Assembly: GCA_004298045.1 (NCBI GenBank)
Contig: SCRM01000009.1
Location: 1-47,444, forward strand
Source of the DNA: Rhodanobacter sp.
GTDB taxonomy: Bacteria > Pseudomonadota > Gammaproteobacteria > Xanthomonadales > Rhodanobacteraceae
DNA: 47,444 bases
Direction of reading: 5' to 3'
The notes under the pieces: generated by a model
What the model was told of the DNA's origin: nothing
Database searches by the model: none
What the model saw: only the letters and a program-made list of their open reading frames with translations
Translations under genes and position numbers: made by a program
In this document: positions 12,608-42,384 of the stretch, piece after piece
How positions within the stretch are numbered: the first letter of the stretch is position 1
How the letters are laid out: every line of letters starts with the position of its first letter

Positions 12608-13522
12608 TCACGAGGCCCCCGGCGCAGTGGGAAGCGACGTCATGAGCTTGGCCGCGGCGGCGCCGAGCGCCGGTCCCGTCGAGATCGCGTTGGACGGATG
12701 GGCGATCGTGTCGGTACTGACGATTCTCGCCAGACGGGCGGCTTTCAGTTGCTCATAGGCATCACCCGAGAACACCGGATGGATCGCCACCACGACCGGC
12801 GCCGGCAGGCCGAGTCGTTCCAGGTGGCCGAGCGTCTCCAGGATCGTGCGTCCCGATGAAACGATGTCGTCGACCAGCACCGGGGTGCGTCCGGCGACGG
12901 CAGCGGCATCGGGCAAGCTGACGCTGACATCGTAGTCGCCGCGGCGCAGCTTGCGCAGCACCTGGAAGGGCACGCCGGCCCGCGTGGCGATGCTGCTCAC
13001 CCATTGCTCACTTTCGCTGTCAGGCCCGATCACGATGGCGTCGGGCACATTCGAAGCGATCCAGCGGGCCACGAGCGGAGCGGCGCGCACGTGTGCCGTC
13101 GGGATGCGGTACAAGGCATCCAGTCGTGGCGTGCGATGCAGGTGGGGGTCCACCGTCACCAGCCAGTCGAAGGACTGCTCCAGAAAGCGCGCGAACAGCG
13201 GCGAGGTGACGGCCTCGCCGCGGTGGAAGCGGGTGTCCTGCCGCATGTAGCCGAGGTAGGGCGCAATCAGACCCACGCTGCGGGCGCCGAACTCACGGGC
13301 GGTCTCCGCGGCGAACCGCAGCGGCAGCGCGATGGCGTCGGCCGTGCGCAGGCTCGCAAGCATGGCGACGTCCGCGTCCTGCAGGGCAGTATCCAGGGTA
13401 ACCAGGGATTCCCCATCGGGAAACCGGTGCCAGTCCAGCGGGGCAACGCGGGCGCCGAGTTCGGCCCCGACCGTCGCCGCCAGGGCGACGTCGGCGGGAA
13501 ACGGGATCAGGATGCGATTCAT
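12608..13522 (-). CDS. Ribose-phosphate pyrophosphokinase-like protein (PRPP synthetase family)
   Basis: Expected to make 5-phosphoribosyl-1-pyrophosphate from ribose 5-phosphate (or a related pentose phosphate) and ATP. Seen: YLGYMRQDTRFHRGEAVTS (ATP/flexible-loop region), TVDPHLHRTP (divalent-cation/catalytic His) and VLVDDIVSSGRTI, the PRPP-binding loop. At 304 residues it is of usual size but sequence details differ from housekeeping Prs, so it is probably a specialised paralogue. The start overlaps the stop of the phosphorylase gene by ATGA, implying translational coupling. Known gene neighbourhoods pair such proteins with AMP/thymidine phosphorylases and MBL-fold RNases; the joint role in nucleotide salvage is inferred. 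Confidence 0.85.
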   Translation of the reverse strand: MNRILIPFPADVALAATVGAELGARVAPLDWHRFPDGESLVTLDTALQDADVAMLASLRTADAIALPLRFAAETAREFGARSVGLIAPYLGYMRQDTRFHRGEAVTSPLFARFLEQSFDWLVTVDPHLHRTPRLDALYRIPTAHVRAAPLVARWIASNVPDAIVIGPDSESEQWVSSIATRAGVPFQVLRKLRRGDYDVSVSLPDAAAVAGRTPVLVDDIVSSGRTILETLGHLERLGLPAPVVVAIHPVFSGDAYEQLKAARLARIVSTDTIAHPSNAISTGPALGAAAAKLMTSLPTAPGAS

Positions 13523-15030
13523 GCGGCCTCCTCCAAGGCGAAGGGCACGGCCGTCGCCGCGTACTCCAGCGCGTACGCCAACTCTCCGCGCGACTGCGCA
13601 TGGACGGTGAACAGGGGTTGTCCGCGCTGGACGACGTCACCGATCCGCCACGCGGTGGCCAGGCCCGCGGCAGGCGAGCCGGGGGCGCCGGCAAGCTTGG
13701 CAATGCGTGCCAGCCGGCGGTTGTCGATCGCCGCAATCCGCCCGGACGCACCCGCGGTGACGTCCGCGGTGAACTCCGCGTGTGGCGGCTCGCGGAAACC
13801 GCCCTGGGCTTCGCAGATCGCGAGGAACTTCGCCAGCGCCCGGCCCGAGTCCAACACCTCATTGGCCCGCGCTACCCCGGTGCCTGGGGTGGTGCCGGGC
13901 ACCATGTCCAGCAGGGCACCGGCGAGCGCCACGCTGCGCTCGCGCAGATCCGCCGGTGCATCGGCGTTGTTGCGCAGGACCTTGAGCACATCCAGCGCCT
14001 CCAGCGCGGGCCCGATGCCCACGCCGACCGGCTGGCGGCCGTCGGAGCGGTACACGTCCAGCTGAAGGCCAAGCGCCGAGGCCGTGCCACCCAGCCGGGT
14101 GGCAAGACGGGTGCCGGCGGCGTCGCTGCGCACCTTCGCGGTCGGACCTACCGGGATGTCGATCAGGACGTGGGTCGAGCCGGCCGCAACCTTTTTCGAC
14201 AGCACGCTGGCGACCAATTGCCCGTCGCTGTCGAAATCCAGCGGTCGCTGGATCCGGATCACGATGTCGTCGGCCGGGCTCAGGCGGACGTTGCCTCCCC
14301 AGACAATGCAGCCTCCCTCACGCTCCACGACGCGCCGCATGTCCGGCAGGTCCAGTGCCACCGGCGCCAGCACCTCCATGGTGTCGGCGGTCCCCGCCGG
14401 CGACGTGATCGCGCGCGAGGAGGTCTTGGGGATGCGGTAGCCGAGCGCGGCGATGATCGCCACTACGATCGGGGTGGTGCGATTCCCCGGCAGACCACCG
14501 ACACAATGCTTGTCCAGCACCAGGCCTTCGCCCCAGTCGAGCCGCTGGCCGACGGTCAGCATGGCCCGGGTCAGCGCGGTGGTTTCACTCTGGTCCAGCC
14601 GCTCGCCGGCGGAGGCGGCGACGAAGGCCGCGAGCTCCAGGTCGGACAGCCGGCTGGCCACGGCGTCCTGCATCAGGGCGAGATACTGGGATTCGTCCAG
14701 ACGTCCGCCAAACACCTTGGATCGCAGTGCACCCACGGAAGCCGCCGGCTCGGGGTGACGGAAGCTGGCCAGCTCCCCGGGCTGCGGTGCCAGTGCGCTC
14801 CAGGCCGCCTCCGAAAGAGCTGCCTCATCGACGGTGACCAGGTCGCCGACCACGACATTCAGGGTCGCGATCAGCGTGCGCTGCCCGAGCTGCACCTCCA
14901 CCCGGGTCATGGCGGCGAATCCTTCCGAGCGGCAAATCTCGCATTCGCGGTGCATGTAGACCACCGGCTGCTGGTAGGTGTCGATGCCGGCACGGACGAC
15001 CCGCATGCGGGTGTGGGTCAACGCGTTCAT
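13519..15030 (-). CDS. Thymidine/AMP phosphorylase family protein (archaeal-type)
   Basis: Phosphorolyses a pyrimidine nucleoside or a nucleoside 5'-monophosphate, giving the base and a ribose 1-phosphate or ribose 1,5-bisphosphate. The 503-residue product is longer than DeoA (~440), with an extra ~90-residue N-terminal domain as in archaeal AMP phosphorylase. Catalytic-domain motifs are LDKHCVGGLPGNRTTP (phosphate binding) and KTSSRAITSPAGTADTME. ATG at 15030 with GGAGGACGTGGAAC upstream is chosen over an upstream in-frame start. Both ends overlap neighbours by ATGA (MBL protein before, PRPP synthetase after). AMP-phosphorylase activity rather than thymidine activity is favoured by length and context but unproven. 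Confidence 0.85.
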   Translation of the reverse strand: MNALTHTRMRVVRAGIDTYQQPVVYMHRECEICRSEGFAAMTRVEVQLGQRTLIATLNVVVGDLVTVDEAALSEAAWSALAPQPGELASFRHPEPAASVGALRSKVFGGRLDESQYLALMQDAVASRLSDLELAAFVAASAGERLDQSETTALTRAMLTVGQRLDWGEGLVLDKHCVGGLPGNRTTPIVVAIIAALGYRIPKTSSRAITSPAGTADTMEVLAPVALDLPDMRRVVEREGGCIVWGGNVRLSPADDIVIRIQRPLDFDSDGQLVASVLSKKVAAGSTHVLIDIPVGPTAKVRSDAAGTRLATRLGGTASALGLQLDVYRSDGRQPVGVGIGPALEALDVLKVLRNNADAPADLRERSVALAGALLDMVPGTTPGTGVARANEVLDSGRALAKFLAICEAQGGFREPPHAEFTADVTAGASGRIAAIDNRRLARIAKLAGAPGSPAAGLATAWRIGDVVQRGQPLFTVHAQSRGELAYALEYAATAVPFALEEAA

Positions 15031-16418
15031 GTTCCACGTCCTCCTTCCAGCGCCACCCGTTCCAGGTGTTCCGGAGCGCGGGCCGACCATCCGAGCTCGC
15101 GCTGGATGCGCGCGCGCAACGTGTCTGCCGCGTCCGGCTCGCCGTGCGTCACGTAGACAATGCGTGGCGCCGTCGGTGCGGTGCGCATCCAGTCCAGCAG
15201 TTCGTTCGCATCCGCGTGGCCGGAGAACCCCTCCAGTTGGACGACCTCGGCGCGGATGGGAACGTCGCGACCGAACATCCGCAACGTGGACGCGCCCCCC
15301 ACCAGGGCCGCGCCCCGCGTGCCACCGGCTTGGTAGCCCGCGAGCACGATGGCATTGCGATCATCCGGGCCGAACGCCTCGATGTGATGCAGTACGCGAC
15401 CGCCGGTAACCATGCCGCTGGCCGAGATGATGATCAGCGGCCCGCGCTGGCGATTGAGCGCCTTGGACTCCTCGACGCTGTTGATGAAGGTCGTCAGCTC
15501 GTACATGCGGCGGCACTCCTCGTCCGACACGCGGTGTTCGTCGTGGTGGCGGTGGTAGATGCGGGTCGCATTGATGGCCATCGGGCTGTTGAGGTAGACC
15601 GGAACCCGCGGGATTTCGCCCCGCTCCCGCAGGCGCGTCAGGTGCAACATCAACGCCTGCGCCCTGCCCACCGCAAAGGCCGGGATCACCATCACCCCGC
15701 CCCGGGCAGCCACCCGGCGCACGATCGGCGCGAGCTCGGCTTCCTGGTCGACGGACACGTGCGCCCGGTTGCCGTAGGTGGACTCGCAGACCAGCACGTC
15801 GCAGGCGGGCAGTGGCGAAGGCGGGTTCATCAGCGCCTCGTTCTGGCGCCCGAGGTCGCCGCTGAAGTGCAGGCGCTGGCCATGCACGTCCAGGCTGACA
15901 TGGGCAGCGCCGATGATGTGACCCGCCGGATGGAAGCGTGCCCGGATGCCGGGCACCACCTCGACCTCTTCGCCCTGGTCGTGGCCGTGCAGGTATTTCA
16001 GGCTCCTGCGCGCCTCCTCTTCGGTGTACAGCGGCAGCGGCTCCTTGTGCTTCGAGTATCCCTTGCGCGCCGCGTACTTGGCTTCCTCCTCCAACAGATG
16101 GCCGCTGTCGGGCAGCAACAGACCGCACAGCGCCACGCTGCCATGGGTGCAGTGGATGCGGCCGCGGAACCCCTGCTTGACCAGCGCCGGGAGGTATCCC
16201 GAATGGTCCAAGTGCGCATGGGTGAGCACGACGGCGTCGATGGCTGCCGGATCCACCGGGAACGGGGCCCAGTTGCGGTCACGCAGCTGCTTGTAGCCCT
16301 GGAACAGGCCACAGTCGACGAGCACGCGGTGCCCGCCATCCTCGACCAGATAGCGCGAACCGGTGACGGTGCCGGCGGCGCCGAGGAACTGCAGGGTGGA
16401 TCCGCTGGTGGTATTCAT
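15027..16418 (-). CDS. MBL-fold/beta-CASP metallo-hydrolase, putative ribonuclease
   Basis: A 463-residue member of the CPSF/Ysh1-like metallo-beta-lactamase superfamily, which cleaves RNA with two zinc ions. Seen: LTHAHLDHSGYLP (the HxHxDH metal motif), HPAGHIIGAAH, FSGDLGR, the beta-CASP part with FAVGRAQ and SASGMVTGG, and SGHAD followed by VTHGEP near the C-terminus. Length and motif order are normal. It is cytoplasmic (no signal). It overlaps the phosphorylase gene by ATGA and is itself overlapped by the 34-codon ORF upstream. Placed before a nucleotide phosphorylase and PRPP synthetase, it could supply nucleotides from RNA; this is an inference. Confidence 0.88.
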   Translation of the reverse strand: MNTTSGSTLQFLGAAGTVTGSRYLVEDGGHRVLVDCGLFQGYKQLRDRNWAPFPVDPAAIDAVVLTHAHLDHSGYLPALVKQGFRGRIHCTHGSVALCGLLLPDSGHLLEEEAKYAARKGYSKHKEPLPLYTEEEARRSLKYLHGHDQGEEVEVVPGIRARFHPAGHIIGAAHVSLDVHGQRLHFSGDLGRQNEALMNPPSPLPACDVLVCESTYGNRAHVSVDQEAELAPIVRRVAARGGVMVIPAFAVGRAQALMLHLTRLRERGEIPRVPVYLNSPMAINATRIYHRHHDEHRVSDEECRRMYELTTFINSVEESKALNRQRGPLIIISASGMVTGGRVLHHIEAFGPDDRNAIVLAGYQAGGTRGAALVGGASTLRMFGRDVPIRAEVVQLEGFSGHADANELLDWMRTAPTAPRIVYVTHGEPDAADTLRARIQRELGWSARAPEHLERVALEGGRGT

Positions 16419-22787: not shown

Positions 22788-23311
<524 letters not shown>

Positions 23312-23835: not shown

Positions 23836-24564
23836 GTGACCACACCCTGCCCGCGACTGTTGATCGTCGACGATGATCCGGGGATCCGCAGCTTGCTGCA
23901 GCGCTACCTGGCCGCCCAGGGGCTGCAGGTGGATACCGCCGGCGACGGCGCGCAGATGCGCGCGCTGTTGGCACACCAGCCAACCGATCTGGTGTTGCTG
24001 GATCTGGGCCTGCCGGGCGAGGACGGCCTGGCGTTGACACGCGAACTGCGTGCCAACTGGCACGGCGCCATCATCATCGTCACCGGCCGCGGTGCGCCGG
24101 TCGATCGCGTGGTGGGGTTGGAAATCGGTGCCGACGACTACGTGACCAAACCGTTCGACCTGCGTGAGCTGCTGGCGCGCGTCCACTCGGTGTTGCGGCG
24201 AACCCGACCAGTCGAAACCAGCGCTCACGTCGATGCAGCCCCCCGGCGCTACGGCTTCGACCGCTTCGTGCTCGACCGCGCCACCCGCGAACTGACCGAC
24301 AACGGCAAACCGATCCCCCTGACAACCGGCGAATACACATTGCTGGACGCACTGGTTGCCCAGCCGAACCATGTGCTGTCGCGCGACGAACTGATGGCGC
24401 GTCTGCACCGGCGCGATGCCGGCCCAATCGATCGCGCGATCGACATGCAGATCGGCCGCCTGCGGCGCAAGATCGAAGTCGATCCCGGCAATCCGGTGCT
24501 GATCAAGTCGGTGCGCAGCGCCGGCTATCTGCTCGCGGCGCGCGTGACGTGCAAGGAAAGTTGA
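23836..24564 (+). CDS. OmpR-family response regulator
   Basis: Two-domain transcription factor of 242 residues. The receiver has the acidic pair IVDDDPG, the phosphorylated Asp in LVLLDLGLPG and the conserved Lys in YVTKPFDL. The C-terminal winged helix contains LTTGEYTLLDALV, LSRDELMARL and IDMQIGRLRRKI. The start is a GTG at 23836 with no strong ribosome site. It is followed after 2 bases by a hybrid histidine kinase gene, its likely partner. An FNR-like site lies upstream. Confidence 0.92.
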   Translation: MTTPCPRLLIVDDDPGIRSLLQRYLAAQGLQVDTAGDGAQMRALLAHQPTDLVLLDLGLPGEDGLALTRELRANWHGAIIIVTGRGAPVDRVVGLEIGADDYVTKPFDLRELLARVHSVLRRTRPVETSAHVDAAPRRYGFDRFVLDRATRELTDNGKPIPLTTGEYTLLDALVAQPNHVLSRDELMARLHRRDAGPIDRAIDMQIGRLRRKIEVDPGNPVLIKSVRSAGYLLAARVTCKES

Positions 24565-24566
24565 CC

Positions 24567-26600
24567 ATGGTCGGGGCACCGGATCAGCGCGATGTGTTCG
24601 GCGTGCTTCGCGCCCTGTTCGACATCACTCCGGACGCCATGCTCGCCGTGGACGAGGATGGCCGCATCGCGCTGGCCAACGCGCAGGCGGAGCAGCTGTT
24701 TGGCTATGCGCCGGGCGCACTGCACCGCCAGCCGCTCGACGCCCTGTTGCCGCTGCCGCTGCGCTACATGCATGCCGCACATTTTCGCGAATACCTGCGG
24801 CGCCCGCGCGTGCGTCGCATGGGCATCAATTACGAGCTGCAAGGCGTGCGCGCCAATGGCGAGAAGTTTGCGGTGGATGTGGGCCTGAGTCCCGTGGCCA
24901 CCGAACACGGCCCGTTGGCCATCGCGGCCATCCGCGACATTTCCACCACTCAGCGCGGCCAGCAAAGCGCACGGGGTTCGCGGCTGGACAATTTTGTGGT
25001 GCAGATCGGCCGGCTGTTGCTGGAGTCGCCCGACCACTGGGAAGCCATTGCGCGCATTCCCGAGCAAGTGATGGCAGCGCTCAGCATTGACGCGGTCGCG
25101 ATCCTGGCCACCGACTGGCATGACAAGCTGCTGCGCGTCCGCGCGGATGCGGGCATTCCGGCCGAAGCCGTGGTCCGACTGGCACCGATCCTGTCGACCG
25201 CGGGCTGCATGCATCACTTCTTCGTCGACCGCGATCTGCCGGCGATGACCATGGATGCCCTCGCGCGCGCGGAGTTTGCGCAGCTGCAGGCGGAACTGGC
25301 GCAGATGGGCTTTGGCGATTGCGCCATCGTGCCGTTGTTCGGCTTGTACGAGCCATCCGGGCTGCTGCTCGCACTCGCCCATGCGCCGCGCCGGTTCGAC
25401 CATGGTGCGGTGAGCTTCTTGCAATCGGTCGCCAACCTGGTGGCCTCGGCGGTACAGCGGCGGCGCGCCGAGGTGCAGCTTGCGCACGCCCAGCGTCTGG
25501 ATGCCATCGGCCAGCTGACCGGCGGGATCGCGCACGATTTCAACAACCTGCTGACGGTGATTTCCGGCAATCTGCAGCTGCTCGAAATGGAGTCCGAAAA
25601 CTCCGACTCGGCCGCGACCTCCATCGCCAGCGCGCGTCACGCAGTGGAGCGCGGCGCCGACCTCACGCGCAAGCTGCTGGCATTCGCCCGCCGCCAATCG
25701 CTGCGCCCGACCGCGGTGGCAGTGCGTCCGATGCTGGACACCCTCGGCAACCTGCTGACGCGCACGCTGGGCGAAACCATCGAGCTGAAGATCACCTGCG
25801 TCGATGCCTTGCCCGATGTGCAGGCCGACCCCACCGAGCTGGAAACCGCCCTGATCAACCTGGCGTTGAACGCGCGCGACGCGATGCCGCGCGGCGGTCG
25901 CCTGGCGCTCGTCGCCGAGCCTTGCACGATCCCCGTGGCCGGGCCGGAGGACATCCCGCCAGGCTGCTACGTGACCTTCACCGTGACCGATACCGGCACC
26001 GGCATGCCGGCCGAAATCCTGTCGCGCGTGCTGGAGCCGTTCGTCACCACCAAGGAATCCGGCAAGGGAAGCGGCCTCGGCCTGCCGATGGTCTACGGCT
26101 TTGTCGAGCAATCGGGCGGGCGCATGACCATCGACAGCCGGCTCGGCTATGGGACCAGCGTGCGGCTGTACCTGCCGGTGGCGACCAATCCGGCGATCGC
26201 CGCCGGTGCAAGGCCGGATACCCGCGACGCAGAGCGCCATGCCACGGTGCTGGTGGTCGAGGACGACCCCGAGGTGCTCAACATTGCCATCGCGTTCGTG
26301 CGATCGCTCGGCCATCGGGTACTGGTTGCCCGCGATGCCGGTCAAGCCCTGGATATGCTCGCGGAGGAAGCGCAGGTCGACTTGCTGTTCACAGATGTGG
26401 TGCTTGGTATCGGCATGGATGGCATCGCGCTGGCGCACGCGGCACGTCTGGCGCGCCCCGGGCTGGCGGTGCTGCTCACCTCCGGCTACCCACGCGGCGA
26501 GACCGGCGGCGTCGAAGACGCATCCGAATTCGACCTGCTGCGCAAACCCTACCGGCGCGAGGACCTGGCTGCCGCGCTGACGCGGGCACTCGGCGATTGA
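24567..26600 (+). CDS. PAS-GAF hybrid sensor histidine kinase with C-terminal receiver
   Basis: A 677-residue cytoplasmic sensor with no membrane segment. Order: PAS domain (about 10-130, ending IAAIRDIS), GAF-like domain (about 150-310), dimerisation/phosphoacceptor helix with IAHDFNNLL (near 335), ATPase domain ([25 protein letters not shown]) and a receiver ([26 protein letters not shown]). In the PAS, the segment [14 protein letters not shown] aligns with the haem-histidine region of FixL, His69 falling at the haem ligand, though similar non-haem PAS families exist. ATG at 24567 has AAGGAAAG upstream. Cytoplasmic PAS+GAF suggests sensing of redox, gas or a small molecule. Confidence 0.9.
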
Positions 26601-26615
26601 GCGCGCCCGCTCAAT
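26596..26615. terminator. Hairpin containing both stop codons of convergent genes
   Basis: ATTGAGCG and CGCTCAAT form a perfect 8-base stem with a CGCC loop. The kinase stop (TGA, 26598-26600) and the regulator stop (26611-26613) are both inside the stem. Likely a compact bidirectional terminator, although there is no T-run. Confidence 0.5.
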
Positions 26616-27309
26616 GCACGGCAGCGCCGTCCTCCACCCAGACGCGCAGCGCGTTGGCATCGAGCAGGCGAATCTGCCTGCGCGATACCGCGATCAGACC
26701 CCGCCTGGCGAGCCCGGCCAGCGCGCGTGTCACCGTTTCGTGCTGTACCGCGAGGAAGCTGGCGATGTCGGCGCGCCCCATGGCCAGCACGAACTGTGAC
26801 TGCCCACAATGCGCGGCGTGGTTGAGTAGAAACGCGGCAACCCGACGCTCCGCCGCCAGTGTGCCGATTGCCAGCATCCAGCCGTGGTCGCGGCGCACCT
26901 CGCTGGCAACCGCGGCAGTCAAGCCGGACTGCAGCGCCGGGTTGCCGGTGCACACGCCGAGCATCGCGTAGTACGGCAGGCACCAGACTTCCGTGTCGGC
27001 GAGCGCGACCACGTCGCAACCGTAGGTCTCCAGCCCGATCGACTCGACGCCCAGCAACTCGCCGCGCATGCGAAATCCGGTGACCTGCTCGCGACCATCG
27101 CTGCTCAGCAGACAGCTCTTGAGCAAGCCCTCGTGCACCAGGTACAGCGCATTGAACGGCTGCCCCGCGCGATACAGGTGATCGCCCGCTTTCAGCTTGC
27201 GCCGCGCCAGGGCAAGGTGCTCGCGGAACGGTTCGACATCGAGCGCCCACGTCGTGTGCGGCATCGGCGTGGCGGCCTGGCGGTGGCAATCGGCAAGGGC
27301 AAGGTTCAT
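26611..27309 (-). CDS. CRP/FNR-family transcription regulator lacking Fe-S cysteines
   Basis: A 232-residue regulator with a cyclic-nucleotide-type beta-roll (AGDHLYRAGQPFNALYLVHEG, EQVTGFRMRGELLGVESIG), dimer helix and a C-terminal helix-turn-helix (IASFLAVQHETVTRALAGL). The recognition helix has ETVTR, close to ETISR of FNR, whose Glu and Arg read TTGA half-sites. The N-terminal cysteine cluster of FNR/ANR is missing (only one Cys before the beta-roll), so oxygen sensing by a 4Fe-4S cluster is unlikely; a DNR-like NO/haem sensor or other ligand is possible. ATG at 27309 gives the usual length; an ATG at 27264 is the alternative. Divergent from an RNR-like gene with a near-perfect FNR box between them. 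Confidence 0.88.
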   Translation of the reverse strand: MNLALADCHRQAATPMPHTTWALDVEPFREHLALARRKLKAGDHLYRAGQPFNALYLVHEGLLKSCLLSSDGREQVTGFRMRGELLGVESIGLETYGCDVVALADTEVWCLPYYAMLGVCTGNPALQSGLTAAVASEVRRDHGWMLAIGTLAAERRVAAFLLNHAAHCGQSQFVLAMGRADIASFLAVQHETVTRALAGLARRGLIAVSRRQIRLLDANALRVWVEDGAAVH

Positions 27310-27428
27310 GGGGCTCGGCCGAATTGAAATGACGGCTGCACCATAGCCGCGCGCCACTGGAGGCTGGGCCACAAACCGGAAACGGCGGGTAACGGTGTGT
27401 AACAGGCACAGTTGCCGCCGGTCGCAAG

Positions 27429-27442
27429 TTGATATCTGTCAA
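27429..27442. promoter_or_regulatory. FNR/ANR-type box before the RNR-like gene
   Basis: TTGATATCTGTCAA matches TTGAT-N4-ATCAA at 9 of 10 positions and the ANR form fully. It is centred 63 bases before the RNR-like ATG and 126 bases before the divergent FNR-family gene start, so it could serve activation of one and autoregulation of the other. Confidence 0.7.
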
Positions 27443-27498
27443 CGTGGACACGCTGCCTCTGCGCAGAGTCGCGTTGACCCTTTCGAGTTGTCACCTGC

Positions 27499-28599
27499 AT
27501 GCCCGCCTTACCCACTGATTCGCCCTTTCTTTGCGCCGCATCGGTGGAGGCGTGGGATGCATGGTTCCGCTGGCGCGACGCCAAGAGGCTGCACGACGTG
27601 TCGATCGAGGACACCTGGCAGCGGATCGCCACGGCGCTTGCCGCTGCGGAGCCTCACGCCGGGCGAGTGAGGTGGTTGAACCGCTTCGTCGAGGACATGG
27701 CGCAGTGGCGGGTGCTGCCCGACGAGCGGCTCTACCAGCTCGGCACCGGGACGCTCGCCCTGCGCAGCGGCCCACTGCACGCTACGCTGAACGCCGCGTG
27801 CTTCGTCTCCCGGCCGGGTACGCCCAGCGCATTTTCCGACTACGGTGCAGTCGCGCGCAGCGCCGGCCTGGCGCTGCGCCTGCTGGACGATGCGCTGCTG
27901 CTGGTCGGACGCACCGATACCCACGTGCGCATCGGCATCATGGGCATCGCCGACGCATTGGCGTTGCTGGGCCTGGATTACGCCAGCGCGGCTGCCTGCG
28001 ACACCGCGCGGCGGTTCGCGGAAGCACTCGACGAGGGCTGCCGGCAAGCCAATCACGAGCTGGCCATGGCGCGCGGAGCCACCGCTTCCCTGCGCGGCGA
28101 GACACCGCTGACGGTGACCCGCCGCTACCCCTCGCCCGCAGTGCGTCGATCCGGTGTGCCCCACCGCTGGCGCTATCGCAGCATCACCGCGATCGACAGT
28201 CAGCGCCGCCTCGCCCTGCTGGCCAACGACGTCAGCGATGCACTGGATCCCCTGCCCGCCGGCCGGCGCTCGCACCGGATCGACGCCCCCGGCGGCGCCC
28301 GTCTGGTGCTCTCGCCGGGGTACGCCGCAACCGTACTGCAACACAGTGCGCCCATCGCGGCCGACCCGGCAGCAGCGGGTGACAGCGCCGTCTGGCAGGC
28401 ACAGCTGCGCCTGCGCGCCGCGCTGCAACCGCAGATCGACAAGCCGATCGACTACCCACTGGCCCTGGCCGCCAGTCCGACCGCAGACCTGCGCCAGCAA
28501 GTGGAAGCGTTGGCGCGGCAAATGGCAGTGGCCACCCCGCGCTGGCCGTTGATGCTTGCCGCCCGCTCTTCAGCGCAACAGCCCACACACCCCAGCTGA
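27499..28599 (+). CDS. Ribonucleotide reductase-like protein lacking the catalytic core
   Basis: A 366-residue protein whose segments resemble class II/I ribonucleotide reductase large subunits. Residues ~70-105 resemble the start of the catalytic barrel (LHATLNAACFV, Cys101 at the redox-Cys position). Residues 144-193 (VRIGIMGIADALALLGLDY ... ELAMARGA) resemble the conserved helix region near the barrel end, and residues ~225-260 (RSITAIDSQRRLALLANDVSDALDPL) resemble the loop usually containing APTG. Only about 45 residues separate the first two blocks where true enzymes have over 200, and the N-x-C-x-E active-site motif is absent. So it cannot reduce nucleotides as known enzymes do. The frame is intact and preceded by an FNR box. 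Role unknown. Confidence 0.6.
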   Translation: MPALPTDSPFLCAASVEAWDAWFRWRDAKRLHDVSIEDTWQRIATALAAAEPHAGRVRWLNRFVEDMAQWRVLPDERLYQLGTGTLALRSGPLHATLNAACFVSRPGTPSAFSDYGAVARSAGLALRLLDDALLLVGRTDTHVRIGIMGIADALALLGLDYASAAACDTARRFAEALDEGCRQANHELAMARGATASLRGETPLTVTRRYPSPAVRRSGVPHRWRYRSITAIDSQRRLALLANDVSDALDPLPAGRRSHRIDAPGGARLVLSPGYAATVLQHSAPIAADPAAAGDSAVWQAQLRLRAALQPQIDKPIDYPLALAASPTADLRQQVEALARQMAVATPRWPLMLAARSSAQQPTHPS

Positions 28600-28604
28600 G
28601 CGAT

Positions 28605-29369
28605 TCAGGTGGTTGCCCGCACGCGGTCGTGCGGCAACAGCCAGCGCACCGCAAGCAGACCCAACTCGTAGAGAAGACACATCGGAATCGCCAGCAGGAT
28701 CATCGAGACGATATCCGGCGGGGTGATCAGCGCGGCCACGGCGAATGCGCCGACCACCGCATACCGGCGCCCCTGGCGCAGGCGGTCGAGATCGACCACG
28801 CCCAGGGCGGCAAGGATCACCACCGCCACCGGAATCTCGAAGCACGCGCCAAAGGCCAACAACACCAGGGTGACGAAATCGAGGTAGTGCGCAATGTCGG
28901 TCATCATCGCCACGCCGTGCGGCGTGGCCGCGGTGAAGAACCGGAACGCCGCCGGCAGCACGGCAAAAAACGCGAACGCGCAGCCGAGGTAGAACAGCAG
29001 CACGGCGGATACCAGCAGCGGCCGCGCCAGCCGTTTCTCGCCCGCGTACAGGCCCGGCCGCACGAACGCCCACGCCTGGTAGAGCACCACCGGCATGCCG
29101 GCGAACAGCGCCGCATACAGCGCCAGCTTGAGCGGGGTCAGGAACGGGCTGGTGACCTCGGTGGCGATCAGGTGCGCGCCGGCGGGCAGGCGCGCCACCA
29201 GCGGCCGCGCCAGGGCGGCGTACAGGCGGTTCGCAAACGGCATCAGGGCCGCAAACACCAGCCCCACGCCGGCCGTTGCCTTGAGCAGGCGCGAGCGCAG
29301 TTCCAGCAGGTGCGGAAACATGCCCCGCGGCAAGGCCGCAGTGACGGTATCGGGCGCGGCGTCGTTCAC
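28605..29369 (-). CDS. tatC: Sec-independent protein translocase TatC
   Basis: Substrate receptor of the twin-arginine translocase; binds RR signal peptides such as that of NosZ. The 254-residue protein has six membrane segments, HLLELRSRLL near the N-terminus (conserved cytoplasmic motif), LYQAWAFVRPGL (conserved loop) and LDFVTLVLLAFGACFEIPV. The start is GTG at 29369, overlapping the tatB stop as GTGA. It is the last gene of the nos operon. It converges on the RNR-like gene with only five bases between stops. Confidence 0.95.
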   Translation of the reverse strand: MNDAAPDTVTAALPRGMFPHLLELRSRLLKATAGVGLVFAALMPFANRLYAALARPLVARLPAGAHLIATEVTSPFLTPLKLALYAALFAGMPVVLYQAWAFVRPGLYAGEKRLARPLLVSAVLLFYLGCAFAFFAVLPAAFRFFTAATPHGVAMMTDIAHYLDFVTLVLLAFGACFEIPVAVVILAALGVVDLDRLRQGRRYAVVGAFAVAALITPPDIVSMILLAIPMCLLYELGLLAVRWLLPHDRVRATT

Positions 29370-29695
29370 GCGGGGTCGTCGCGGCGGGCATCGCCGCCGG
29401 GTGCGACGGGTGCCGGCGCGGCCACGGCATCCACCGCATCACGCAGGTCGCTGGCGAGCGTCGCGGCCTGCGATTCCAGCGCGACGGCCTGCGTGTGCGC
29501 CGCGCCGACCGCCGTCTTGAGCTCGGCGTACTGCAGGTCGCGCGCCACTTCCGCCTGCACGCTGGCCCAACCGCCACGCAGCCGGCGCAGCAGCGCCCCG
29601 GCGGTGCGCGCCGCCACCGGCAGTTTCTCCGGCCCCAGCACCACCAGCGCGATCAGCGCCAGCAGGATCAGCTTGCCGAAATCCAGCTCGATCAT
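29366..29695 (-). CDS. tatB: Twin-arginine translocase subunit TatB
   Basis: 109 residues: one N-terminal membrane helix with the Glu near the start (MIELDFGKLILLALIALVVLGPEKLP), a Gly-Pro hinge, then a long amphipathic helix and a Pro/Ala-rich tail. Works with TatC in signal-peptide recognition. It is nine bases after tatA and overlaps tatC. Confidence 0.9.
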   Translation of the reverse strand: MIELDFGKLILLALIALVVLGPEKLPVAARTAGALLRRLRGGWASVQAEVARDLQYAELKTAVGAAHTQAVALESQAATLASDLRDAVDAVAAPAPVAPGGDARRDDPA

Positions 29696-29704
29696 GGCGG
29701 TCGC

Positions 29705-29923
29705 CTAGCTGCGCGCGACCTTGTCGCCCGCGGGTACCGACTCGCCGGTGGCGGCCGCGTCGGCCTGCAGGCGCTCGACCGGCTTCGGCGCCGGTTCGGT
29801 GCCCATGCTCTCCTTGAAACCGCGAATGGCCGCGCCGAGGTCGGGGCCGATCTTGCTCAGCTTGCCGGTGCCGAACACCAGCGCCACCACCACCAGCAGC
29901 AACAACAGATGCCAGATGCTCAT
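29705..29923 (-). CDS. tatA: Twin-arginine translocase subunit TatA
   Basis: 72 residues with the N-terminal membrane helix [20 protein letters not shown], the FGTGKL hinge and an amphipathic helix [12 protein letters not shown], as in TatA/TatE. It multimerises to form the protein passage. Preceded by GGAGAG, 33 bases after nosL, so likely in the nos transcript. In Pseudomonas a single tatE may follow nosL; here a full tatABC does. Confidence 0.92.
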
Positions 29924-29956
29924 GGGTCCACTCTCCGTCGATGAAACAGGAACTGC

Positions 29957-30622
29957 TCAGTGCGGGACATGCGCGGACATCGCGTGCCCCGGCGACATGC
30001 CCGACCTGCCGTCGTGCATGCCTGCCATGACGGCGACCGATGTGTCGGCCATGCCGGAGCCGGCAGCACAGGCGCGGAACCGCGCATGCATCGCGCTGCC
30101 CGGTGCCGGGCAACGGGTGTCCAGCGCGGCGGTCAGCGCGGCATCGACGTCGTCGAACCGCACCACCTGCCCACCGTGGCGGCGCACGAAATCCGCCGCG
30201 GCCGGCGCGTTGGCAAACGAGGCGAAGGTCGGCCCCATCATGCCGGCGAGCGGCTGCCAGGCCACGTAGTACGCCGTGCGCGCGTCGATGAAACTGCGCG
30301 GCGATGACGGCGGCCGCCGCCAGTCGGCACCGGCCATGTCCTGCACGTAGAGCTGGCCGAGCTGGTGGCGGTTTTCCGGCTGCAGGATGAAGGCGAAGAA
30401 ATCGCGCACCGAGCCAAACTTGAGCGGCGCCGGCTGGCCGGCCAGATAGGCCTCGGCCCGCGGCCCGGGTGCACCGGCGATCGCCATGCCGCAGCCCACG
30501 CTGGTGTCGTCGACCGCGATCGCCACCGCCGGTTGCGCCACCGTCGCCACCTGCCGCCCGCAGCCGGCGGCACCGAGCACCGCCAGTGCCAGCCACACCC
30601 CTTGCATCGCGTGCATGCTCAT
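29957..30622 (-). CDS. nosL: Copper chaperone lipoprotein NosL
   Basis: Periplasmic lipoprotein that delivers Cu+ for NosZ copper-site assembly. The 221-residue product has a lipobox (LGAAGC), then the NosL domain with GMAIAGAPGPRAEAYL (the Cys-Gly-Met region just before it is the metal motif CGM), YVQDM, and FIDARTAYYVAW. The C-terminus carries an extra Met/His-rich tail (MAGMHDGRSGMSPGHAMSAH), probably another copper-binding stretch. ATG at 30622 overlaps the nosY stop (ATGA) and follows GAGGAGGC. Confidence 0.92.
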   Translation of the reverse strand: MSMHAMQGVWLALAVLGAAGCGRQVATVAQPAVAIAVDDTSVGCGMAIAGAPGPRAEAYLAGQPAPLKFGSVRDFFAFILQPENRHQLGQLYVQDMAGADWRRPPSSPRSFIDARTAYYVAWQPLAGMMGPTFASFANAPAAADFVRRHGGQVVRFDDVDAALTAALDTRCPAPGSAMHARFRACAAGSGMADTSVAVMAGMHDGRSGMSPGHAMSAHVPH

Positions 30623-31452
30623 GCCTCCTCGCGTCGGAACAGCCACTGCGCCAGGCCGAACGGCACTACCACCCACAGCACCAGCGCCAGGTACAGGCCC
30701 CACAGCGGGTAGGCGTGCCCGGCGGTCATGCCCATGAACAGCTCGTTGCCGCTGCCGGCGCCGAGCGTGGTGAGGTTGACCAGGCGGAACACGTCGACCG
30801 GGTTGAGGTACAGCAGATACGGAAACGCGGCGCGCTCCCATCCGCTGCCGCCGCTGAGCACCAGCACCGCCAGCAGGCACAGGTCGAACACCACCACTGC
30901 CATGAGCCACACCAGGAGCGCGATGCCGGCAGCGCGCGCCTTGTCGCGCGCCGCCGTGCCGACGATGGCGGCCAGCGCGATGAAGCACGCGCCGAGCAGC
31001 GCGCCGCTCAGCATGAAATTGCCCAGGCTGCGCCAGGCGTCCAGCGTGCGCGCCTCCGGCTGCATCACCTGGATCGCGATGGCGGCCACGCCGAACCCGG
31101 TCAGCATGGCGCCGGCCATCGCGCTGCAGTGGCCGACGAACTTGCCGGCCAGCAACGTGGCACGCGAGATCGGGTAGCTCAGCATCAGCAGCAGCGTGCC
31201 CTTGTCCTGCTCGCCGACGATCATGTCGTAGGCCAGCAGCAGGCCGATCAGCGGCACGATGAACGCGGCCAGCGTGGTGAGGCTCGCCAGCGTGGCGTTG
31301 AACGAGGTGAAGCCGACCTTGCCGGCCGCCGCGCCGCCGAAATAGGAAATGACCAGCGCCAGCGCGGCAAACAGCACCGCCACCGCGATCGTCCAGCGGC
31401 TGCGGAAATCGTCGCGGAATTCCTTGCCGGCAATGATGCCCATGTTGTTCAT
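30619..31452 (-). CDS. nosY: ABC transporter permease NosY
   Basis: Membrane part of the NosFY ABC complex, which with NosD supports maturation of the CuZ site. 277 residues with six hydrophobic helices and the start MGIIAGKEFRDDFRSRW typical of NosY; YDMIVGEQDKGTLLLMLSYP is the conserved ABC-2 coupling region. ATG overlaps the nosF stop by ATGA and the stop overlaps nosL. Confidence 0.93.
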   Translation of the reverse strand: MNNMGIIAGKEFRDDFRSRWTIAVAVLFAALALVISYFGGAAAGKVGFTSFNATLASLTTLAAFIVPLIGLLLAYDMIVGEQDKGTLLLMLSYPISRATLLAGKFVGHCSAMAGAMLTGFGVAAIAIQVMQPEARTLDAWRSLGNFMLSGALLGACFIALAAIVGTAARDKARAAGIALLVWLMAVVVFDLCLLAVLVLSGGSGWERAAFPYLLYLNPVDVFRLVNLTTLGAGSGNELFMGMTAGHAYPLWGLYLALVLWVVVPFGLAQWLFRREEA

Positions 31453-32384
31453 CGCATGCCCTCCCCCTGGCGTGCGACGGCGCCGAGGTGGTCGTACAGG
31501 CGCGCCAGCGAGGCCTCCTTCACCACGATGTCGCCGACCTCGGCGCGCGCGGCGAGCCGTTGCAGCAGGGCGAGCTTCGCGCTGCCGGCCACCTCGATCT
31601 CGTAGCGGCCGTCGTTGGCCACGTGGTAGAGCGCGCCGCTGGCATGCAGCTCGCGCAGGAACTGCGCGGCATCGTCGTCGCGCCGCAGGCGCACCTGCAT
31701 CAGGTCCGGCAGCCCGGCACGCTGGCGCAGGTCCTGCATGCTGCCGGCAGCCAGCAGCTCGCCCCGGCGCAGGATCAGCGCGCTGTCGATGTGCGGCTCC
31801 AGCTCGGCCAGCAGGTGCGAGGACACCAGCACGCCGCAGCCCTGCGCGCGCAGTTGCGCGATGACGCCATACAGCTCGCGCGTGGCCTGCGGATCGAGGC
31901 CGCTGGTGGGCTCGTCCAGCACGACCACCTCGGGGTTGCCGAGCAGCGCCTGCGCCACGCCGAGGCGCTGGCGCATGCCCTTGGAATACGCCGCCACACG
32001 CCGGTCCCGGGCCGCGGCAAGGCCGACGCGTTCGAGCAGCTCGTCGACCTGCGCCCGCGGCGCGCGCTTGAGCGCAGCGAGGTAGGCCAGCACCTCGCGG
32101 CCGGTCAGGTTGCCGTAGAAGGCGACGTTTTCCGGCAGGTAGCCGATGCGTCGCCGGAGTGCCGCCGACCCCGCGCCCCACGGCGAGGCGCCGAGCACGG
32201 CGATGTGCCCGGCGCTCGGGCGGATCAGCCCCAGCACCAGCTTGATCAGGGTCGACTTGCCCGCGCCGTTGTGCCCTAGCAGGCCGACCACGCTGCCCAT
32301 CGCCACCCGGGCGCTGACGTGCTCCAGCGCGACGCATGCCGGGTAATGCTTGGCCAGGGCTTCGACCACGATCGCGTCGGTCAT
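31449..32384 (-). CDS. nosF: ABC transporter ATP-binding protein NosF
   Basis: ATPase of the NosDFY copper-site maturation complex, 311 residues. Walker A GHNGAGKST, Q-loop YLPENVAFYG, signature YSKGMRQRLG and Walker B VVVLDEPTSGLDP are all present. The ATG at 32384 overlaps the nosD stop (ATGA); the frame is open far upstream but only as the other reading frame of nosD. Confidence 0.95.
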   Translation of the reverse strand: MTDAIVVEALAKHYPACVALEHVSARVAMGSVVGLLGHNGAGKSTLIKLVLGLIRPSAGHIAVLGASPWGAGSAALRRRIGYLPENVAFYGNLTGREVLAYLAALKRAPRAQVDELLERVGLAAARDRRVAAYSKGMRQRLGVAQALLGNPEVVVLDEPTSGLDPQATRELYGVIAQLRAQGCGVLVSSHLLAELEPHIDSALILRRGELLAAGSMQDLRQRAGLPDLMQVRLRRDDDAAQFLRELHASGALYHVANDGRYEIEVAGSAKLALLQRLAARAEVGDIVVKEASLARLYDHLGAVARQGEGMR

Positions 32385-33667
32385 GGCTGGTGTCCTCTCC
32401 ACGCTGCGGGAATGGCCATCAGCGGAAAGTGGTCGCTGACGCCGGGGGTGGCAAACACGGGGAACGCGCGCTGCACGTAGCGCAGCAGCAACACCGAGGG
32501 GCTGGACATCAGCAGCCGCGCGTCGGGGTATTTCCACATCAGCGCATCGACGCCATCGTTCGGCCGGTATGGCACGTCGCCGATGCCGTTGCCGTCGAGA
32601 TCCCAGCCGGCGTAGTTGCTCCAGTAGTTGCCGTGTCCGGGCCGCGACCATTCCTGCGCGGCGTTCTGCACGTACATCACCTGGGTGCGGTTGCCGAGGA
32701 ACGCATTGCCCACGATGCGGTTGGCGTTGGACCCGGCGGTGACGTGGATGCCGATGCGCGAGTCGGCCAGCAGATTGTCGACGATGGCGTTGCCCTGCGA
32801 CAGGTAGACGAACAGCGCCTTGCCTTCGGCGCCGACGATGACGTTGCCGTCGGCGTCGAACTGCCCGGCGATGCCGCGGATCTCGTTGCCGCGGATCTCA
32901 CTGTCGTTGATGTAGTTGAGCAGGATGCCGTACGACATGTCGCGATAGGCGCGGTTGCCGACCACGCGCAGATGGTCGGAGGCCATCAGCGCGAAACCGG
33001 CGGTGTTGTCGTGGCTGACATTGCCGGTCAGCTCGTTGTGTTTGGAATACATGTAGTGCACGCCGTAGCGCACGCCGTGGATGTGGTTGTCGCGGATCAC
33101 GTTGTCCGGGCTGATGTAGACGTAGATGCCGTCGCGCGTGCCGCTGACGTCGTTGTGCGCAATGGTGCAGCCGGTGTCGTTCCACAGGTGGATGCCGTCG
33201 CCGCGGTCGGGCGGGCGCAGGCCGGGCATGCCGACGATGGTGTTGCCGCGCACGTCCACCGCGGCCGGGCCGTCGAGGTACACGCCGAACAGCACGTCCT
33301 CGATGCGGTTGTCCAGCACCTGCGCGCCGCGCGCGGCCTGGCCAACGCGGATGCCGGCGTCGGTGGCGGTGAGGTCGCTGCCCGAGTGGCGCACCACGAG
33401 TCCGCGCACGGTCACCCCGGGCGCCGTGATCGTCACCACGCTGCCGGTGCCGTCGCCGTCCAGCACTGCGCCCGGCGCGCCGGCCAGGGTCAGCGGCCTG
33501 TCCAGCACCAGATGCAGGTGGTGGACCCCGGGCGGCACGGTCACCGTCGCGCCCGGCCGCGCAGCCGCTACCGCCTGCAGCACGGCGTCGGCGGCCGGCG
33601 CCGCCTGCAGCAGCGTGCAGGCGCCAAGCAGCATGCCGGCGAGCGGGAGCAGGCGACGGGGCGTCAT
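32381..33667 (-). CDS. nosD: Periplasmic copper-binding maturation protein NosD
   Basis: Right-handed beta-helix (CASH/PbH1 repeat) protein that works with NosFY on N2O reductase. The 428-residue product has a signal peptide ending near AAPAA, many short repeats of the N-x-I-x-G/D-N type (RGNTIVGM, IRDNHIHGV, VVGNRAY), and near the end GHGNYWSNYAGWDLDGNGIGD, a family signature. ATG at 33667 is selected by the signal sequence. A large hairpin lies between nosZ and this gene. Confidence 0.93.
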   Translation of the reverse strand: MTPRRLLPLAGMLLGACTLLQAAPAADAVLQAVAAARPGATVTVPPGVHHLHLVLDRPLTLAGAPGAVLDGDGTGSVVTITAPGVTVRGLVVRHSGSDLTATDAGIRVGQAARGAQVLDNRIEDVLFGVYLDGPAAVDVRGNTIVGMPGLRPPDRGDGIHLWNDTGCTIAHNDVSGTRDGIYVYISPDNVIRDNHIHGVRYGVHYMYSKHNELTGNVSHDNTAGFALMASDHLRVVGNRAYRDMSYGILLNYINDSEIRGNEIRGIAGQFDADGNVIVGAEGKALFVYLSQGNAIVDNLLADSRIGIHVTAGSNANRIVGNAFLGNRTQVMYVQNAAQEWSRPGHGNYWSNYAGWDLDGNGIGDVPYRPNDGVDALMWKYPDARLLMSSPSVLLLRYVQRAFPVFATPGVSDHFPLMAIPAAWRGHQP

Positions 33668-33683
33668 GGCCTTCGCAGGCAGC

Positions 33684-33717
33684 GGCGGTTGCCGGTCGGG
33701 GCCGGCCGGCAACCGCC
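33684..33717 (-). promoter_or_regulatory. Strong hairpin in the nosZ-nosD gap
   Basis: GGCGGTTGCCGG and CCGGCAACCGCC form a perfect 12-base stem with a 10-base loop, placed 5 bases after the nosZ stop and 16 bases before the nosD start. No T-run follows. It probably protects the nosZ mRNA 3' end or partly blocks read-through, giving more NosZ than NosDFYL. Confidence 0.55.
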
Positions 33718-33722
33718 CGCCA

Positions 33723-35669
33723 TCACGCCTCCACCAGCATCCGGCCACGCATTTCCAGGTGCAGCGCGTGGCAGAAGAACGTGCAGTAGTACCAGTACAC
33801 GCCGGGCTGGTTGGCGACGAAGGTCACCGACGAGGTTTCCTGCGGACTGATCTCCATGTTGATGCCGTAGTCGGTCAGGCAGAAACCGTGCGTGAGGTCT
33901 TCGACCTGGTCGATGTTGGTGACCACCACGGTCACCTCGTCGCCCTTCTTGACCTTGAACTCCGACAGGCCGTACTTCGGCGCGGAGCTGGTCATGTACA
34001 CGAACACCTTCCTGCCGGCGCGAACCACCTTGCTGTCCTTCTCCAGCACCACGCCGTGCTTGCGCGCCTGCGCCACGGTCTCGGCGAAGAACGGGTCCTT
34101 GCGGTCCCACTTGCGCTTGATCTTGTCCATCACCATGCGCCGCGGCAGGATGATGGCGTCGTGCGGCTCGGAGAACACCGGCGCATCGGCCACCAGCACC
34201 ATCTTGTCGCCGGAGATGTCGATCAACTGGTCGAGGTCGGGATGCAGCGGGCCGGTGGGCAGGAAGCGGTCCTTCGAGAACTTGTTGAGCGACACCAGCC
34301 ATTTGCCGTCGGCGTCGCGGGTTTCGCCGAGCGACGTATGGCAGTGGCCGGGCTGGTAGGCCACATCCAGTTTCTGCCGCAGGTAGTTGACCTTCTTGCC
34401 GGCATACGCCGCGATCGCGTCGGCGATGTTCCACTTCGCCATCTGGCTGTCGATGAACAGCGTGGTGTACGCGTTGCCGCGGTTGTCGTAGGCGGTGTGC
34501 AGCGGCCCGAGGCCGAGCTGCGGCTCGGCCACCACCGCGCCGCGCGGGTCCTTCAGCCGGCCGGCGAAGTAGTCGTCCACCTTGCTCCACGCCATCAGCG
34601 TCACCGTGGGCGAGAGCTTGCCGTTGGCGGCGAAGTACTTGCCGTCCGGCGAGGCGTTCAGGCCGTGCGGGCTCTTCGGCACCGGGATGTACATGGTGAG
34701 CGGCGAGCCGTGACGGCCGTCGAGCACCGGCACCTTCGAGCTGCCGATGCGGGTGAACTTGCCGGCTTTCACCGCTGCCTCGATGCGGGCAAGGTTGAAC
34801 ACCACGACCCAGTCGCGCTCGCTGCGCATCATGCCGGCGAGGTCGACCGCGCCTTCGCTGTTGTAGCAGGTGGAGGCGGCGTACTTGCCGGCGTAGTCGC
34901 AATCGGTGTTGTCGAGGTTGCCGTCGACGATGACCTGCCAGGCCACCTCCATGGTGTCGCCATTGAGCGCGGTGAACATCGCCTGGTACTTGGCCGGGGC
35001 GTCCAGGTCGCGGCCGTCGTTCGGCGTCGGGATGCGGAACTCGGCATTCGCGAACACGTAGCCGGTGCGCGGCTCGCGCTGCACGCGCAGGCCGTGGATC
35101 GCCTGCACGTTGGGGATTTTGGTGATCTTGTCGGTGCGCATCACGTCGAGGCGGATGCGCGCGACGCGGGTGCCGGCCTTGTCGTTGATGAACAGGTAGC
35201 GGCCGTCGTAATGGCCGTGGGTCTGGCTGCCATGCGGATGGTGCGCGTCGCCACCGGCGGGGAAGCCCTTGCCGAGCACGCGCTTGCTCTCGTTGGTGAT
35301 GCCCCAGCCGATGGCGAAATCGGGATTGAACACCGGGATGCGCATCAGCTCGCGCATCGATGGCACGCCGAGGATGCGCATCTCGCCGGACTGGCCGCCG
35401 CTCCAGAAGCCGTAGTACTCGTCGAGCTGGCCGGACGCCACGTGGTCTTCCGGCATCTTGTCGTGGTCCGATGCCTGCGCCGTGCGTTCCAGCCCGAGGC
35501 CGCCGATCAGGCCGCCGGCGCCGACCAGCCCGGCCAGCGCGCTGCCGCGGATGAAGGTGCGGCGCGCCGGGTCGCCCGGAAGGTCCGCTGCGGCCGCCGG
35601 CGACGTGCGCCCGGTGGCGGGGGAAGTCGGGTTCGACGCGGCGTGCTCGTCGTGCTTGTGGTCGCTCAT
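33723..35669 (-). CDS. nosZ: Nitrous-oxide reductase NosZ, clade I (Tat-exported)
   Basis: Periplasmic multicopper enzyme reducing N2O to N2. The 648-residue protein has a Tat signal ([18 protein letters not shown] at about residue 40), a seven-bladed propeller bearing the CuZ histidines (HHPHG and later His residues), and a C-terminal cupredoxin with the CuA motif [15 protein letters not shown] Tat rather than Sec signal and a following nosDFYL place it in clade I. ATG at 35669 follows GAGGAGC. The His/Asp-rich start DHKHDEH is unusual but lies before the signal. Gap to nosR is 46 bases. Confidence 0.97.
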
Positions 35670-35715
35670 GGTGATGCTCCTCGCTCTCGGCAATGGCCGG
35701 CAAAGACTCGGGTGG

Positions 35716-42142: not shown

Positions 42143-42193
42143 GAGGTGCTCCGTCTTCGGTGGCGATGATCGCGAGCGGCCCGGTGGTCCCAT

Positions 42194-42207
42194 TTGAGCT
42201 GCGACAA
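42194..42207. promoter_or_regulatory. FNR-like site between TDT transporter and moaA
   Basis: TTGAGCTGCGACAA agrees with TTGAT-N4-GTCAA at 8 of 10 positions. It is 59 bases (centre) before the ATG of the small ORF/transporter unit and 184 before moaA, leaving room for the long moaA leader. Confidence 0.35.
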
Positions 42208-42239
42208 GTCGCTCATCGACAGCCGCTCCGGATTGACCG

Positions 42240-42376
42240 CAGAATCGCCGCACAAACTCCGAGATGCAGCATCTTCAGTCGCCAGCGACCTGGTGCCGTG
42301 TCCGTAGCCGGAAAGCTTGCATGCCGGCTGCCGGGTGGGTGTGGAAACGCACCCGCCTCCCGCCGATTGGAAAGGA
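42240..42376 (+). promoter_or_regulatory. Structured 5' leader of moaA, possible molybdenum-cofactor riboswitch
   Basis: The leader can fold into several hairpins: GTCG/CGAC (42278-42289, CCAG loop), AGCCGG/CCGGCT (42306-42329) and an 8-base stem GGTGGGTG/CACCCGCC (42334-42357) just before the ribosome site AAAGGAG. Moco RNA elements are known before moaA in many gammaproteobacteria, so this is a candidate. I could not confirm the conserved core by eye; it may be an unrelated leader. Confidence 0.35.
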
Positions 42377-42384
42377 GCACATGC

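Follow-up and report, generated by a model that had tools for sequence, protein, structure and literature searches.

Mycobacterium tuberculosis possesses NrdZ, an extra class II ribonucleotide reductase (RNR) that is tied to hypoxia and belongs to the DosR regulon; it is a full-length enzyme, and its host falls into another phylum than the hosts of the protein described here. Inactive relatives of RNRs are already known from betaherpesviruses, in which the large-subunit homologues UL45 and M45 are catalytically inactive and bind other proteins (PMC5469499). The likeness to the present protein is one of description and not of sequence: the R1 homologues are viral and have lost most catalytic residues, whereas the present protein is bacterial, derived from a class II enzyme and has had a whole block excised. 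In Burkholderia, the lxa locus comprises universal stress proteins, a two-component pair and a CRP-family regulator, and BCAM0310, annotated as a ‘ribonucleotide reductase-like protein’, is listed in it; the locus is described as induced under low oxygen, and in B. contaminans it is also expressed aerobically (PMC4981469). What BCAM0310 shares with the present protein is this annotation only. In the literature searched, at the level of titles and listings, no inactive RNR relative from bacteria was found. Such a relative in bacteria, conserved and probably oxygen-regulated, would suggest either that dNTP supply is controlled at a level not yet recognised or that the RNR fold has been put to a new use, and its gene would be a concrete test case for why low-oxygen survival clusters carry RNR-like genes.

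The gene lies at 27499..28599 on the plus strand of the window, i.e., of the whole stretch of 47,444 nucleotides from Rhodanobacter sp. that was analysed, and encodes 366 residues in a frame without internal stop (GC of the three codon positions 0.73/0.57/0.83). Its ancestry, deletion, conservation, selection, promoter pattern and neighbourhood were established by computation. The Pfam domain PF02867 (RNR barrel) is recognised at residues 144-200 with 25.6 bits (E 6e-6; cut-off 23.9), and in a search of the entire source genome the same ORF scores 25.7 bits, while PF00317 (RNR all-alpha) at residues 35-74 stays with 20.7 bits below its cut-off of 28. The best NCBIfam matches are NF005401/PRK06948, ‘ribonucleotide reductase-like protein’, and TIGR02504 (39.4 and 36.8 bits); the former lies far below the NF005401 cut-off of 906, which is reached in none of the 369 genomes of the class. 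Searched alone against solved structures, the protein finds one RNR, weakly (E 0.09); a profile of 25 family members finds RNRs at E 1.7e-13, the best being the class II enzyme 1xje. The source genome (95.9% complete) holds a class II-type NrdJ frame of 729 residues and a NrdA frame of 851 residues elsewhere, which makes this protein a third, extra RNR homologue.

Class II RNRs of about 600 residues (NrdJ/NrdZ type) can be aligned with the protein over the N-terminal domain and the second part of the barrel, but they carry the N-x-C-x-E active site and, in most cases, an IAPTG/IAPAG loop, both of which it lacks, together with 217 residues. Compared with L052, a class II RNR frame of 633 residues whose host belongs to the same bacterial family, a single internal block is absent, namely L052 residues 112-328, the equivalent of which comprises 227 residues in the NrdJ of the source genome. 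The N-x-C-x-E motif falls inside this block and is absent from the ORF and from the aligned family, whereas all 27 of the longer RNR frames inspected retain it, as N-P-C-x-E or, in L055, as N-V-C-x-E. The alignment follows the all-alpha N-terminal domain (residues about 10-85) through and then jumps, at a junction around residues 84-92, to ‘N..CFV’ in which the profile pairs the invariant N98 with Asn334 of the Thermotoga RNR 1xje. The second part of the barrel and the C-terminal helices (residues about 93-345) are retained and can be followed in the family relatives as LALLANNVADAVDPL, compared with ISLLANGVSSGLEPL in L052, and in the C-terminal stretch as LTAITSQPRLALLANNVADAVDPL, compared with LLAIAPAGSISLLANGVSSGLEPL. 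Pfam, the profile and the alignment to L052 thus confirm what the first-pass annotation had proposed, an RNR-like protein without catalytic core and without N-x-C-x-E; its estimate of about 45 residues where over 200 are expected was right in the size of the loss, and the junction is now placed near residues 84-92. Since the active site is absent, enzymatic activity has presumably been lost.

The structure prediction and structural search that had been proposed as a check returned reductases. An AlphaFold2 model of the window protein, built with 25 native sequences, reached a pLDDT of 85.0 and a pTM of 0.86, and Foldseek retrieved 126 PDB matches at E<=0.001 (best 4e-9), of which the 50 listed are all RNR large subunits. 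Among these listed matches the TM-score by query length is mostly about 0.5, indicating that the RNR fold is partial. Judged by the architecture of RNRs, the deletion would remove the finger loop together with the first of the two halves of the ten-stranded barrel, the second being kept; the few strands in the model agree with the loss of the first half. For a Tahibacter member sharing 35% identity with the window protein, a second model reached a pLDDT of 85.4 and a pTM of 0.87, with helices and strands following one another in almost the same order, its alignment rows being drawn from the same sequence set as those of the first model.

On 27 longer RNR frames the family profile reaches 71-223 bits and on the NrdJ of the source genome 112 bits, compared with 21 bits on its class I NrdA, which argues for a class II origin. 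In the trees, all family members fall into a single clade (ultrafast bootstrap 100) on a long branch (1.4-1.5), both in a first tree without class I enzyme and in a second one to which the NrdA of the source genome was added (L055 was left out of both); the deep nodes are poorly supported, so that the nearest longer RNR is not singled out, and NrdA sits on a very long branch. On the favoured reading, the protein arose when an ancestral class II RNR, about 600 residues long, lost the first part of the barrel with N-x-C-x-E by internal excision, its helical N-terminal domain and the second barrel part being kept.

Upstream of the gene, an FNR/FixK-like box, TTGATATCTGTCAA, is located at 27429..27442 on the plus strand, matching 9 of 10 specified bases and ending 56 nt before the ATG. 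It is followed after 21 nt by a -10-like element, CAGAGT (27464..27469, plus strand), which is a weak match in the window and often reads GATAGT, CATAGT or GATACT in relatives. The density of boxes with up to two mismatches is 0.27 per kb for the window and 0.49 per kb for related loci; a single box is by itself weak evidence for this reason, and it is the conservation across loci that makes it strong. The earlier claim of a conserved FNR box ahead of the gene held up: among the non-duplicate loci with adjacent regulator, 30 of 32 have such a box, in 29 of these 30 at 55-80 nt upstream, and the remaining two (L018 and L024) carry a three-mismatch version at 66 and 63 nt. The distance from the box in the 30 loci is 68 +/- 9 nt to the gene start and 170 +/- 44 nt to the divergent regulator, the latter measured to the start of the BLAST match and not to the start codon, so that the box tracks the pseudoenzyme gene. 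These counts leave out duplicates on the same contig (L060, L065-L067, L076, L082-L084) as well as loci in which the regulator is non-adjacent or was not found or in which the contig ends (L007, L012, L020, L063, L064, L081; at L064 no good box was found), and they retain both L057 and L019, whose promoter sequences are identical.

In 20 of the 32 loci the box is followed, at a distance of 21-23 nt, by a NATA(G/C)T element, and a looser form, defined after seeing the data, adds 11 more, including the window; in L028 no -10-like element was found. Taken together, the box mostly precedes the -10-like element by 21-22 nt. The mean match to TATAAT amounts to 2.7 of 6 positions at offset 21 compared with 0.6-1.5 at the other offsets scanned. 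This spacing places the centre of the box at a predicted position near -41, the geometry of promoters that are activated by FNR-type proteins. Based on promoter pattern and gene context, we infer that the gene is activated at low oxygen. In eight of the 32 loci (L013, L021, L022, L023, L025, L027, L029 and L080) an in-frame ATG lies 6-7 nt after the -10 element, which suggests a leaderless mRNA; L059 is a ninth locus with such an ATG, out of frame by its coordinates. Two more FNR-like boxes with one mismatch are present in the window, at 22824 and at 42724, the latter within a frame (42160-43362) that encodes a moaA-like radical SAM protein.

Divergent from the gene, a CRP/FNR-superfamily regulator of 253 residues, FNR/FixK-like, is encoded at 26611..27372 on the minus strand. 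In 50 aligned regulator rows, duplicate loci included, no N-terminal cysteine cluster is conserved, and cysteine occurs in at least half of the rows in two columns only, neither of them N-terminal; the regulator thus looks FixK-like and not like an Fe-S FNR. Frequent neighbours are a hybrid histidine kinase with PAS, HisKA, HATPase and receiver domains (24549..26600, plus strand) and an OmpR-type response regulator (23836..24564, plus strand). Of the 16 gene-bearing genomes of the bacterial family, 15 have a match to the kinase at E<=1e-100; in the sixteenth, G688, the contig begins inside the kinase gene. The 12 rows shown for the kinase PAS domain contain an H..H motif; such motifs also occur in heme-free PAS domains, so that no conclusion on a heme-type PAS domain is drawn.

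Loci of this type, whether or not the gene is present, have universal stress proteins and a cation ATPase among their neighbours. Rough clustering counted phosphoketolase in 10, acetate kinase in 8, alcohol dehydrogenase in 8, phosphate acetyltransferase in 6, thymidine-phosphorylase-like proteins in 6 and PRPP-synthetase-like, BON and CBS proteins in 4 each of 54 loci, these numbers being approximate as rough gene calls mis-clustered some antisense frames (e.g., cluster 3 in L069 and L071). The stress, fermentation and nucleotide-salvage functions among these neighbours speak for a low-oxygen survival cluster, as does the listing of BCAM0310 in the lxa locus. To the left of the gene, the window encodes a PRPP-synthetase-like protein (12608..13522, minus strand) and a thymidine-phosphorylase-like protein with Glycos_transf_3 and PYNP_C domains (13519..15090, minus strand), gene types that also lie near the family in some other genomes, besides a beta-CASP nuclease and a P-type ATPase. 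On the other side, 28605-37000 contains tatC and tatB genes and then a nos cluster, with NosD at 32381-33748 and NosZ propeller domains at 33723-36110; the source genome probably reduces nitrous oxide. Among the longer-RNR loci L052-L056, the response regulator, the kinase and the regulator are all nearby only in G625 (L052/L085), where about 8 kb separate the longer RNR from these regulators and a universal stress protein is encoded close by; L053, L054 and L056 gave no match to any of the three, and L055 distant matches only.

With moderate confidence, we favour the reading that the gene encodes a conserved, catalytically dead RNR pseudoenzyme of a low-oxygen survival cluster, activated by a regulator and acting by partner binding. 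The gene product would be a dead RNR-derived protein and its gene a member of the survival cluster; activation would probably be brought about by a regulator of the FNR/FixK type acting at the promoter with the box near -41, the likeliest candidate being the one encoded divergently next to the gene. The pseudoenzyme would then work through binding a partner and not through catalysis. It may pair with a subunit of a genuine RNR (NrdJ or NrdA), or compete for one, with the outcome that dNTP synthesis is restrained or reset as cells enter anoxia. That it partners or brakes NrdJ or NrdA is our leading guess, which we regard as possible but rather doubtful. Somewhat more doubtful still is the wider proposal of a first described family of bacterial RNR pseudoenzymes, class II-derived and induced by low oxygen as brake or partner of the cell’s own RNR during anoxic persistence.

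A role with a neighbouring regulatory protein has a similar likelihood to that of an RNR partner, i.e., the protein might be a non-catalytic scaffold or co-regulator working with the neighbouring regulator or the kinase system and no longer related to RNR function, a tentative reading as well. It would fit the hyperconserved N-terminal motif and the close association with the regulator, which in 22 of the 25 loci scanned stands next to the gene in divergent orientation (two of the exceptions are cut by contig ends, and in the third, L007, no regulator match was found). Across the 87 genomes of the bacterial family, a regulator orthologue (>=50% identity, >200 bits) is present in 27, and the gene occurs only among these, in 16 of 27 genomes with and in none of 60 without it (Fisher p 1e-10, relatedness left uncorrected; G625, whose regulator has 48% identity, is counted among the 60). 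However, 11 of these genomes have the regulator without the gene, which argues that the regulator does not need it, and mere membership in the regulon accounts equally well for the link. These 11 genomes also weigh against the favoured reading, as do L007, L064, L028 and the longer-RNR loci L053-L056 described above, and the separation of the two genes in some genomes: they lie 27 kb apart in G417, about 51 kb in G679 and 3.6 kb in L063. At L068-L075 the regulator and kinase module occurs with no pseudoenzyme gene at that place, providing natural comparison strains. Co-occurrence with nrdJ, which had been proposed as a check, proved uninformative as RNR barrel matches are found in 87 of 87 genomes of the bacterial family, with or without the pseudoenzyme gene; the informative partner in co-occurrence is the neighbouring FNR/FixK-type regulator. 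In at least nine genomes (G637, G649, G614, G689, G627, G494, G612, G685 and G454) the NrdJ frame has a length of about 1100-1200 residues and the barrel match spans about 2,760 nt compared with 1,640, indicating a large in-frame insertion, perhaps an intein.

Less likely than either of these roles, and in our view improbable, is a sensor that has kept a binding site for nucleotides or cobalamin without catalysis. The retained portion of the barrel and the N-terminal helical domain would speak for it, but the missing block presumably comprises the specificity-effector site and the larger part of the substrate site, and the pseudoenzyme family has S-Q-R/P-R in place of the IAP(T/A)G loop of most longer relatives; the nucleotide sensor put forward in the first-pass annotation is disfavoured on both counts, while the inhibitor and the assembly factor that it also put forward would be candidate roles only. 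Very improbable is one half of a split enzyme whose other half-barrel would be supplied in trans from a gene of its own: class II RNRs that are split occur elsewhere among bacteria and provide a precedent, but the deletion is internal, and the missing 217 residues, sought at E<=0.01 in the 95.9% complete assembly of the source genome, match inside NrdJ only, so that no second gene was found to supply the missing half.

A decaying gene remnant, for which the patchy presence in 16 of 87 genomes of the bacterial family and divergent C-terminal parts in some members, e.g., in G674, might speak, has an equally small probability and is contradicted by open frames over several genera, a dN/dS of 0.19-0.42, the conserved promoter and the deletion shared by all 25 scanned loci. 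The argument that intact frame and conserved regulator site speak against decay was sound, and the proposed check for orthologues and purifying selection found intact orthologues across several genera. The dN/dS range refers to the 25 closest pairs (NG86), YN00 giving 0.08-0.40 for 18 of them; by region, five pairs show 0.11-0.41 outside the linker 195-222 and 0.14-0.55 within it. Internal stops in the profile matches of G655 and G688 were dismissed, since coordinates relative to the frames of L025 and L022 place them at the natural gene end, and G674, matched only to profile position 183, has an open frame of 315 residues with recognisable C-terminal part.

A short-peptide scan of 84,980 species genomes yielded 26 loci, 25 family members and one ordinary RNR. 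The members have 36-55% identity and reside mostly in Rhodanobacteraceae, with Dyella, Rhodanobacter, Tahibacter, Rudaea and Pseudoxanthomonas among the hosts. In alignment A1 (25 rows, without the ordinary RNR L031 and without L026, which is cut by a contig end) 34 columns are invariant, comprising V16, A18-R26 (AWDAWFRWR) and 24 further ones. A profile search of the order retrieved 13 members in 12 of 299 genomes, none of them weaker than E 1.2e-57; a longer RNR follows at 6.5e-45, and the seventeenth match in the search of the bacterial family, G625, is likewise a longer RNR. Throughout the class, 61 of 369 genomes match at E<=1e-25; two of these matches, both in Rhodanobacteraceae, are members (E below 1e-127), and we take the other 59, at E about 5e-49 or weaker and with most frames of about 600 residues or more, some cut by contig ends, to be RNRs and not family members. 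G624 (L060 and L061), which belongs to a different family within the order, carries the pseudoenzyme gene twice, each copy beside a regulator of the same type.
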